Source: Aequorivita todarodis
Lineage (GTDB): Bacteria; Bacteroidota; Bacteroidia; Flavobacteriales; Flavobacteriaceae
Reading direction: 5' to 3'
Assembly: GCF_028561335.1 (NCBI RefSeq)
Contig: NZ_JAQQTG010000018.1
Span: forward strand, 1-64,000
DNA: 64,000 nt
Made by a program: the position numbers and the translations under genes
Shown here: piece after piece, positions 13,546 to 40,083 of the stretch
Layout of the letters: each line of letters starts with the position of its first letter
Numbering within the stretch: position 1 is the stretch's first letter
The notes under the pieces: model-generated
Seen by the model: the letters and a program-made list of their open reading frames with translations, nothing else
Database searches by the model: none
Told to the model about the DNA's origin: nothing

Positions 13546-13553
13546 TACTTTTA

Positions 13554-13688
13554 CTTAACACTTAACACTTAACACTTAACACTTAACACTTAACACTTAA
13601 CACTTAACACTTAACACTTAACACTTAACACTTAACACTTAACACTTAACACTTAACACTTAACACTTAACACTTAACACTTAACACT
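13554..13688. repeat. Heptanucleotide tandem repeat (CTTAACA)n
   Basis: About 19.3 perfect copies of the 7-bp unit CTTAACA (equally TTAACAC) run from 13554 to 13688. The array sits between the MATE stop codon and a small membrane-protein gene. A shorter, partly decayed array of the same unit lies at 22077-22118. A perfect array of this length is likely to vary in copy number. Confidence 0.97.
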
Positions 13689-13693
13689 GAATT

Positions 13694-22068: not shown

Positions 22069-22076
22069 TTTTTAGA

Positions 22077-32430: not shown

Positions 32431-32489
32431 TTCCTCCTTCGTCGGAATGACAAGTTCAGCTTTCTTTTGTCATTCCGACGAAGGAGGAA
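32431..32489. repeat. Perfect 23-bp inverted repeat between convergent genes
   Basis: Arms 32431-32453 and 32467-32489 are exact complements (core TTCGTCGGAATGACAA) with a 13-nt loop. A diverged third half-copy (TTTCCTCCTTCTTCGGAAG) lies near 32572-32590. It could act as a bidirectional terminator for the peptidase gene and gpsA, but the sequence is of a repeat type that I recall being dispersed in flavobacterial intergenic DNA. Confidence 0.9.
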
Positions 32490-32616: not shown

Positions 32617-33621
32617 TCAATCCAACTTTTCGGTTAGTTTCTTAAATATCTTTTTGGGATCCTTATTCTCGTAAAGAATTTCGTAAACACTGTCAATTAT
32701 TGGGGTTTTGGCTTTTTTCTTTCCCTTTTGCTGGTTTAGATGGTAGGCGCTTTTGGTAGCGTAATACCCTTCCGCAATCATGCTCATTTCCAGTTGGGCG
32801 CTTTTAACGGTGTAGCCTTTCCCAATCATTGTTCCGAACAATCTATTTCGGCTAAAAACCGAATAGCCCGTAACCAATAAATCTCCCAAATAAGCAGAAT
32901 CGTTGATGTCGCGCTTCATTTTGTGAACCTTTTTCACATACTTTTTCATCTCGCGGATGGCGTTGCTCATCAGCACGCTTTGAAAATTATCCCCGTAGCC
33001 AAGTCCGTGCGCAATTCCTGCGGCCACGGCGTAAATATTTTTGAGCATTGCGGCATATTCAGTTCCCAAAACGTCGTCGCTAATGGTACATTTAATATAA
33101 TCGCTGCTTAAAACATCTGCAATCAGTTTTGCCTTTTCAGCATCTGCGCTGGCGATGGTTAGATAGGAAAGCCTTTCCAAAGCAACTTCCTCTGCGTGGC
33201 AGGGCCCGGAGATAACGCCGATGTTGTTGAAAGGAACTTTGTAATGTGTGTTGAAATGGTCGCCGACAATCAAACTGGTTTCGGGAACAATTCCTTTAAT
33301 GGCTGAAAAAACAATTTTGTCTTCCAAGGAAACCGTCAATTTTTCAAGTTCTTGATGAAGGAAGGCCGAAGGAATTACGAAAATAAGGCAGTCCGCATTC
33401 GAGACGGTTTCATTTATATCGTTGCTGAGTTTGAGCTGCTTCAAATTGAATTCCACCGAACTCAAATAATTGGGATTGTGCCCCTGTTTTTTAATAAAAT
33501 CCACGGAAGATTTGCTGCGCATATACCAACCCACTTCGTCAAGGTTTTCGCAAAGCATCTTTACGATTGCCGTGGCCCAGCTTCCGCCGCCAAAGACTGC
33601 AAATTTTGGTTTTTCAGACAT
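32617..33621 (-). CDS. gpsA: NAD(P)H-dependent glycerol-3-phosphate dehydrogenase
   Basis: A 334-residue enzyme reducing dihydroxyacetone phosphate to sn-glycerol 3-phosphate for phospholipid synthesis. It has the dinucleotide loop GGGSWATAIVKML at the N-terminus, then VIPSAFL, SAIKGI, ISGPCHAEEVA and AAMLKNIYAVAAGIAHGLG, with the catalytic lysine in the last motif. It is the last gene of a minus-strand group after nadD but is separated from it by 257 bp. Confidence 0.95.
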   Translation of the reverse strand: MSEKPKFAVFGGGSWATAIVKMLCENLDEVGWYMRSKSSVDFIKKQGHNPNYLSSVEFNLKQLKLSNDINETVSNADCLIFVIPSAFLHQELEKLTVSLEDKIVFSAIKGIVPETSLIVGDHFNTHYKVPFNNIGVISGPCHAEEVALERLSYLTIASADAEKAKLIADVLSSDYIKCTISDDVLGTEYAAMLKNIYAVAAGIAHGLGYGDNFQSVLMSNAIREMKKYVKKVHKMKRDINDSAYLGDLLVTGYSVFSRNRLFGTMIGKGYTVKSAQLEMSMIAEGYYATKSAYHLNQQKGKKKAKTPIIDSVYEILYENKDPKKIFKKLTEKLD

Positions 33622-33859: not shown

Positions 33860-33878
33860 CTTATGAATATAATTAGCT

Positions 33879-34493
33879 TTACCTATAAAAATTCATCTCA
33901 TCCAAATACTTCCAAACTTCCGCCGAAAGCATCGGGCGAATATTTTTCCCAGCTTTTATGCCCTTGCGAATAAATGTTGAAGAAAGCTCAATAATAGGTG
34001 CATCAACTATTTTAATTTGCGGGAGTTTTTCCCCCCTTGAGGAGGGCAGGGGGGTGTTTCCCTGCCTGCCGGCAGGCACGGCTTCGGAAATTCTCGGATA
34101 AACGTAAATTGAATACCGCGCTAAGATAACTTCATAATTTTTCCACTTGTGAAGACTTTTCAAATTGTCTTCGCCCATGATCAAACAGAAATGATTTTTT
34201 GGGTACTTCTCTTCCAAATGCGCCAAGGTATTTACCGTATAATTGGGCTGTGGCAGGTCAAACTCCACATTACTGGCCTGCAGCTTTGGGTAGTCTTCCA
34301 CGGCAATCCGCACCATCGCTAACCGATGATGGTCTTCCAAAAGCGTTTTTTTCTTTTTATGCGGATTGTGTGGCGTAACCACAAACCAGACCTCATCCAA
34401 ATCGCTGAACTCCACCATGTGGTTGGCAATGATCAAATGCCCCACGTGAATGGGGTTGAAAGTGCCGAAGTAGAGTCCTGTTTTTTTTGCCAT
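33879..34493 (-). CDS. nadD: Nicotinate-nucleotide adenylyltransferase, with repeat-derived loop
   Basis: A 204-residue NAD-synthesis enzyme that adenylates nicotinate mononucleotide. The nucleotidyltransferase motifs are GLYFGTFNPIHVGHL (6-20), VTPHNPHKKK and the C-terminal IIELSSTFIRKGIKAGK. Residues about 137-157 (SEAVPAGRQGNTPLP onward) are unlike the family. They are encoded by two nested inverted repeats, a perfect 16-bp palindrome at 34063-34078 and C6/G6 arms at 34031-34054. The segment sits in a loop between conserved strands, so the enzyme is probably still active. It overlaps no neighbour; gmk lies upstream. Confidence 0.92.
   Translation of the reverse strand: MAKKTGLYFGTFNPIHVGHLIIANHMVEFSDLDEVWFVVTPHNPHKKKKTLLEDHHRLAMVRIAVEDYPKLQASNVEFDLPQPNYTVNTLAHLEEKYPKNHFCLIMGEDNLKSLHKWKNYEVILARYSIYVYPRISEAVPAGRQGNTPLPSSRGEKLPQIKIVDAPIIELSSTFIRKGIKAGKNIRPMLSAEVWKYLDEMNFYR
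34031..34078. repeat. Palindromic repeats inside the nadD coding sequence
   Basis: TGCCTGCCGGCAGGCA (34063-34078) is a perfect 16-bp palindrome. CCCCCC (34031-34036) and GGGGGG (34049-34054) form a second hairpin. Both are open in the nadD frame, and together they encode VPAGRQGNTPLPSSRG. Confidence 0.85.
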
Positions 34494-34505: not shown

Positions 34506-34525
34506 AGACGCACGGCCGTGCGTCT
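34506..34525. repeat. 20-bp perfect palindrome between nadD and gmk
   Basis: AGACGCACGGCCGTGCGTCT is perfectly self-complementary and fills half of the 46-bp gap between gmk and nadD. It resembles a TAGAGACGC-type palindrome that I recall as widely dispersed in bacterial intergenic DNA. It may weaken or end gmk transcription before nadD. Confidence 0.9.
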
Positions 34526-39886: not shown

Positions 39887-40055
39887 AGCTAACCCCAACC
39901 CTAAAGGGTGCCCATTGGGCAAAAGCTTGTTGGCTTTAATGACAAAGGCTCCCTTTAGGGCGGGGGGTAAATACAGCTAACCCCAACCCTAAAGGGTGCC
40001 CATTGGGCAAAAGCTTGTTGGCTTTAATGACAAAGGCTCCCTTTAGGGCGGGGGG
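39887..40055. repeat. 88-bp tandem repeat upstream of metB
   Basis: Positions 39887-39967 and 39975-40055 are identical over 81 bp (period 88). A diverged third unit precedes them (about 39827-39883). Each unit has near-complementary arms CCCTAAAGGGTGCC and GGCTCCCTTTAGGG (one mismatch) and so can form a large stem. A fragment of similar sequence occurs at 14200-14214. The rest of the 39718-40083 gap has no gene. Confidence 0.95.
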
Positions 40056-40083
40056 CAAAAAAATTATAATTTTAAACATTCTT

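Follow-up and report, generated by a model that had tools for sequence, protein, structure and literature searches.

In Aequorivita, nadD and at least 20 other genes have gained a 21-bp palindromic unit in frame, at sites that are empty in relatives. The mobile insertion of this unit into nadD and other genes, under selection for maintenance of the reading frame, is very likely the correct explanation of this pattern; as for the participation of a transposase, taken by itself, the evidence leans neither way.

The inserted segment of nadD

The nadD gene examined here belongs to a 3.33-Mb genome of Aequorivita (Flavobacteriaceae) and lies within a stretch of 64 kb, the whole of which is referred to below as the window. 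The relevant features are the following.

33879-34493, minus strand: coding sequence of nadD (nicotinate-nucleotide adenylyltransferase, an essential enzyme, 204 aa), which carries the insertions; taken from the list of open reading frames (ORFs), Pfam CTP_transf_like E 3.6e-20, orthologues in 95 of 99 relatives
34061-34081, minus strand: type-A 21-bp palindromic element CCGTGCCTGCCGGCAGGCAGG (alternative framing 34062-34082, GCCGTGCCTGCCGGCAGGCAG); exact match, supported by its absence from this place in the nadD of genome G022 and by other genes with an equal 21-bp insertion
34063-34078, no strand assigned: 16-bp perfect palindromic core TGCCTGCCGGCAGGCA; palindrome scan
34083-34090, minus strand: left target flank TTTCCGAA, which fits the TTCYGAA consensus of empty type-A sites; flank and empty-site counts
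34057-34061, minus strand: right target flank GGAAA (consensus GRAAA); flank and empty-site counts
34032-34058, minus strand: C-rich repeat unit AAACACCCCCCTGCCCTCCTCAAGGGG of 27 nt with hairpin arms CCCCCC/GGGGGG; related units in a GH92 gene, same unit in nadD of genomes G013 and G022

An initial sequence-only reading had claimed that a 16-bp palindrome and a C6/G6 hairpin lie in frame inside nadD between intact flanking motifs, and this claim held. The type-A element encodes AVPAGRQ (residues 138-144) in frame, the C6/G6 hairpin (34031-34054) is likewise in frame, the C-rich unit encodes NTPLPSSRG (residues about 146-154), and the motifs YVYPRIS and IKIVDAPIIELSST are intact on either side of the inserts. 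In the AlphaFold model of NadD, residues 137-154 constitute the sole stretch with pLDDT <50 and form a loop between two strands, the AVPAGRQ loop being predicted to be disordered. That the inserted residues are translated, disordered and near neutral is an expectation inferred without proteomics; similarly, the claim that the enzyme was not broken by the insertion is inferred from the conservation of the remaining protein alone.

NadD in related genomes

NadD was searched for in 99 relatives, and the best 30 of the recovered sequences were aligned. The segment is missing in 24 of the 27 recovered Aequorivita proteins, which supports an insertion; most of these have 193-194 aa in the matched region and a conserved loop (...SEGTVETQFDNHEKIKKVDAP). 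YVYPRIS and VDAPIIELSSTFIR are conserved around the loop, which in most Aequorivita reads SEGTVETQFDNHEKIKK. The only carriers are the window species (G000), a metagenome-assembled genome (MAG; G013) and, for the C-rich part alone, A. vladivostokensis KMM 3516 (G022), the loop being SEAVPAGRQGNTPLPSSRGEKLPQIKI in the first two and SEGNTPLHPSRGEKLPQIKI in the third. At the DNA level, nadD of G000 and G013 equals that of G022 plus the 21 bases GCCGTGCCTGCCGGCAGGCAG, placed between GAA and GGAAAC. The palindrome is absent at the same point in A. vladivostokensis, whose loop otherwise matches, and in nearly all congeners; relative to the G022 gene it is a clean 21-bp insertion.

The simplest order of events is that the C-rich segment was already present in nadD and the palindrome was added afterwards, with the reservation that this is an order of alleles and not of species. 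Positions 33874-34487 are 94% identical to the corresponding G013 locus (L071) while the adjoining stretches show 83-86% identity, evidencing a small recombined block; thus, the nadD allele has been exchanged between species by recombination, and the insertion was not necessarily an event of this lineage. A simple order of nadD events along the species tree was dropped on these grounds.

Two forms of the repeat inside and outside genes

Copies of the repeat were sampled by pattern search and the context was fetched for some 65 loci. The 20-bp form CCTGCCTGCCGGCAGGCAGG (≤3 mismatches) is present in 13 copies in the genome of the window, 63 in the congener G012 and 7 in G013, and has zero copies in many other genomes; a control with the reversed pattern gave 0 matches in all 30 genomes. 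In a sample of the phylum, the 21-bp pattern matched in 46 of 395 genomes, a count that includes 20-bp copies given the tolerance of ≤2 mismatches. Two 21-bp versions were distinguished: type A (CCGTGCCTGCCGGCAGGCAGG), which is the 20-bp palindrome plus G and is read as AVPAGRQ, and type B (CCTGCCTGCCGGCAAGGCAGG), which is the palindrome with an added A and is read as LPAGKAG.

Extragenic copies are mostly the perfect 20-bp palindrome, while genic copies have one base more, 21 bp corresponding to 7 codons. An ORF of ≥120 aa contains 29 of 31 copies of the 21-bp form versus 9 of 42 copies of the 20-bp form (Fisher p = 4e-10), a split that shows purifying selection on frame acting upon a mobile element. 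When these nine ORF-located 20-bp copies were checked by hand, two (L193 and L197) proved to be mis-scored type-A copies in which a G has become A, and another four (L155, L171, L174 and L207) lie upstream of a start codon; the only one clearly within a reading frame is L175, where a DUF4160 and a DUF2442 domain meet. Type-A copies are almost exclusively genic. Among nine new ones that had not been used in forming the hypothesis, 8 were in frame in ORFs and 1 was not, the hosts including an M1 peptidase, an aminotransferase, thioredoxin-like and BatA-like proteins, gpmI and a 23S rRNA IVP, among others. The many type-B copies give a similar picture within genes (HI0933-like flavoprotein, RarA/MgsA ATPase, ketosynthase and others); roughly one in three of the copies inspected is in a short or doubtful ORF. 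Outside the genus, where hosts were recognised by motif and not by Pfam, 21-bp copies read NLPAGRQG in C-terminal regions resembling T9SS sorting domains and in an RsmE-like methyltransferase, and PAYRQAG in an ABC-F-like ATPase; further copies there are extragenic.

The sequence-only reading had also proposed that the same kinds of palindrome recur between genes in the window and that an intergenic repeat was the source of the insertion. The first proposal was not borne out as worded: the palindrome scan found that neither the nadD palindrome nor the C-rich repeat recurs within the 64-kb window, the other intergenic palindromes there are different sequences, and the nadD repeat has extragenic copies in other parts of the genome (C2:29318, C42:61162 and C11:129964). 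The second held in part, as the genic copies are 20+1-bp versions and not the extragenic 20-bp element itself. Its suggestion of a mobile repeat inserted in a loop held for the palindrome half of the segment.

Insertions in other genes

For each gene, orthologous stretches from three to five congeners were fetched and aligned. All 20 further copy-bearing genes have exactly 7 extra codons where relatives show uninterrupted sequence, and with this the PAGRQ-like translations expected in unrelated proteins were found. Named by resemblance, these genes are dapF, a RimJ-like acetyltransferase, nnrD, gpmI, pepD, glnS, tex, an AddA/UvrD-like helicase, cysQ, priA, manA, a small exported protein (L208), dppB, a DNase, ddpX, a PDZ protease, an anti-sigma-like protein, topA, nagJ and a glycosyltransferase. 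In gpmI, for example, the filled site reads MTTSE, AVPAGRQ, GKPVATIEKDDVVIFFNFR and the empty one MTTSEGKPVATIEKDDVVIFFNFR. The topA alignment is less certain than the others because of a lysine-rich tail; in this gene G012 carries a type-B copy of its own, situated ten residues closer to the N-terminus. Pfam supports further host ORFs as real genes, and its profiles span the inserts (in L416, 112 residues versus 105 profile positions).

These data bear on three alternative explanations. The first is ordinary variation in loop length, in which the NadD loop would be naturally variable and the palindrome due to chance. In its favor, the independently lengthened NadD loops of G002 and G009, which have no palindromes, show that length is tolerated, and palindromes as long as 16 bp are no great rarity by chance: the window contains 7 of ≥16 bp, against 1.45 on average in first-order Markov sequences, so palindrome length alone is weak evidence and significance rests on the repeat family. 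Against it, dozens of unrelated genes contain the identical 21-bp sequence, and clean empty sites exist for them; the 20 other genes refute this explanation, which can be considered all but excluded.

The second is that the hairpin is skipped by translational bypassing or removed by RNA excision, so that the ancestral proteins are kept. The insert does fold as a hairpin, and bypassed hairpin-forming inserts exist in some mitochondria. However, all 21 inserts tested against orthologues (nadD included) are exactly 21 bp long and stop-free, and the 20-bp form, an equally good hairpin, is nearly absent from genes. Only translation of the insert would lead one to expect this pattern, and skipping is therefore very improbable.

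The third is that the insert is functional and selected in each protein, for instance as a linker or regulatory tag. Some insertions are indeed common to pairs of species: cysQ, L208 and the DNase in G012 and G013, nagJ in G000 and G022, the glycosyltransferase in G000 and G012, and gpmI, where G025 (L415, from the held-out set) and G012 (L192) have a type-A insert at the same codon and other congeners are empty. Conversely, the peptide is identical in unrelated enzymes and missing from most relatives, several copies (dapF, L204) have decayed by substitution, and the location tracks a DNA target motif, which makes a selected function highly unlikely. It is possible that the shared gpmI codon reflects a target hit repeatedly or an allele exchanged between species. 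As a separate observation, L204 of G012 contains one type-A copy read as SETVPADRQ and a decayed-looking second one, SETVPIDRKVN, suggesting slow erosion after insertion.

Target site and mode of insertion

Sixteen empty sites define a type-A target consensus, TTCYGAA^GRAAA, with one fixed orientation relative to the element; type B adjoins A-rich sequence. The net insertion is 21 bp and target duplication amounts to one G at most. One of the six possible frames is shared by 20 of 25 genic type-A copies (p about 4e-11 under uniform choice), which would follow from a target read mostly as Ser-Glu-(Gly/Glu)-Lys. The single-stranded units fold as hairpins.

No mobilising enzyme was identified for the palindrome among the PF01797 genes of the genus and their scanned flanks. 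Specifically, no copy (≤5 mismatches) was found within 1.5 kb of 12 PF01797 (Y1 transposase) loci in the genus, although not all PF01797 hits were covered. Y1 transposase genes are missing from some genomes with a few copies. A link to a Y1/RAYT transposase was rejected on the basis of this search, as the scanned flanks had no palindrome and copy number showed no clear relationship.

The main rival, which is not excluded, keeps the mobile insertion and differs only in the mode of copying: a replication fork stalled at hairpin DNA would copy the 21-bp hairpin by template switching through flank homology (TTCCGAAG ... RAAA), without a transposase. It is supported by the similarity of the flanks among filled and empty sites (about 8+4 shared bases), by the lack of target duplication beyond 1 bp and of any transposase linkage found, and by the nearly exclusive genic location of type-A copies, which is expected with genes as donors; moreover, the marks left would resemble those of transposition. 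On the other hand, it requires an encounter between donor and target for each of >30 sites, and copy numbers are very uneven, with 63 in G012 and none in many congeners, which resembles enzyme-driven bursts. Weighing these points, we regard template switching as a serious possibility, but one that is less likely than not.

In the preferred explanation, 34061-34081 would represent a single copy of a small, selfish palindrome that reaches new sites through a transposase-like copying reaction on hairpin DNA, specific for both strand and sequence. The activity may be supplied in trans, as with IS200/IS605 elements or REP sequences, and the supposed reaction would act on the single-stranded substrate TTCCGAAGGAAA, cleaved at GAA^G, leaving no duplication or 1 bp at most. 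Genic insertions would persist only when their length is 3n and they fall in a tolerant loop, which would account for the stop-free 20+1-bp versions (AVPAGRQ, LPAGKAG) seen in proteins. The target in nadD would have been a loop previously altered by the second, C-rich repeat.

A bolder reading can also be hypothesized, in which a selfish palindrome of Bacteroidota has produced gene-adapted sub-lineages by the addition of one base to 20, giving 7 stop-free codons, and these 21-bp versions have passed on their own from one gene to another (type A at TTCYGAA^GRAAA) throughout the phylum, placing the same heptapeptide in dozens of unrelated and partly essential proteins. We lean towards this joint claim, by a small margin.

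The C-rich repeat

The C-rich hairpin is a separate repeat, and for this half of the segment the proposal of a simple insertion did not hold: the G022 loop differs from the common one by net +3 codons plus other changes, and the hairpin was rejected as a clean insertion. Most likely, this second repeat (about 27 nt) replaced or reworked the nadD loop at an earlier time; the orthologue comparison for it covers nadD only. In-frame C-rich units form a tandem of three (27-nt period) in the GH92 gene, with more in two histidine kinases, and an RsgA-like protein has such a unit at its C-terminus, nested with a type-B copy. The two histidine kinase genes (L354, G000 C12:64000-70500) show PPSGGRGAW, PPLGGRGAG and APLPPEGG in frame inside the ATPase domain.

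Relation to known palindromic and mobile repeats

In-frame palindromic repeats in proteins are best known from Rickettsia and Wolbachia, both of them obligate intracellular bacteria. The Rickettsia and Wolbachia palindromic elements (RPE in Rickettsia) described by Ogata, Claverie and co-workers are, as here, both intergenic and in frame within conserved protein genes. RPE are units of 105-146 bp with long stem-loops, from obligate intracellular alphaproteobacteria, found in 19 Rickettsia genes at first count, and the sole tested protein (the gmk product) remains active (PMC2229807). The Aequorivita unit differs in being a perfect palindrome plus one base (21 bp) from Bacteroidota, in its sharply defined target motif and in having a 20-bp counterpart outside genes. 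Insertion in frame in conserved genes is met (21 genes) and the 105-146 bp size is not; by analogy, RPE may be considered the nearest relative in kind, with membership failing on size.

REP/REPIN sequences mobilised by RAYT (TnpA_REP) resemble the palindrome as hairpin-forming repeats of 20-40 bp with many extragenic copies. A GTAG or CGTC end tag distinguishes two REP superfamilies (PMC3733652); neither tag was present at the ends or flanks of 26 type-A copies, which show TTCYGAAG...RAAA instead. Unlike REP, the palindrome has no RAYT neighbour that could be found, and one subfamily of it resides inside genes. Bacterial MITEs with ORFs (the 107-bp Correia element, ERIC, YPAL) are also non-autonomous repeats fused in frame to genes, and the Neisseria element has an open 107-bp form in genes and a stop-rich 155-bp form between genes (PMC2229807), a division that resembles the genic/extragenic split of the 21- and 20-bp forms. 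However, MITEs measure about 100-200 bp and mostly have terminal inverted repeats and target duplications, and this requirement is not met by a net 21-bp insertion with at most one duplicated G. Elements of the IS200/IS605 group (TnpA, Y1 HUH) use hairpin DNA and insert beside a fixed short target on one side without target duplication; the palindrome differs from them in having no linked enzyme and a target motif that spans both sides.

The open-licence literature searched contained no report of the 20-bp sequence, of its peptides or of coding palindromes in Bacteroidota, and an earlier description elsewhere is possible. Aequorivita (marine isolates and environmental genomes) offers a similar event in which the element is shorter by a factor of at least five, empty and filled sites can be paired in many cases and the target motif is clear, and the identical 7-residue insertions in many enzymes constitute a natural series for measuring the tolerance of proteins to insertions. 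For annotation, AVPAGRQ, LPAGRQG and LPAGKAG in Bacteroidota proteins can be transposed DNA and not conserved motifs.

Other repeats in the window

Several further repeats were observed. A perfect 20-bp palindrome, AGACGCACGGCCGTGCGTCT, which differs from the nadD repeat, occupies the short gap between gmk and nadD (34506-34525), and an inverted repeat with perfect arms of 23 nt (TTCCTCCTTCGTCGGAATGACAA) lies at 32431-32489 in the gap downstream of the gene at 32617-33621. At 39887-40059 there are two 85-bp repeat copies, 99% alike and with an 88-bp period, which start with AGCTAACCCCAACCCTAAAGGG and have one C-rich and one G-rich end. A tandem array of about 19 units of the 7-nt sequence ACTTAAC extends over 13553-13690, and a shorter array is located at 22076.
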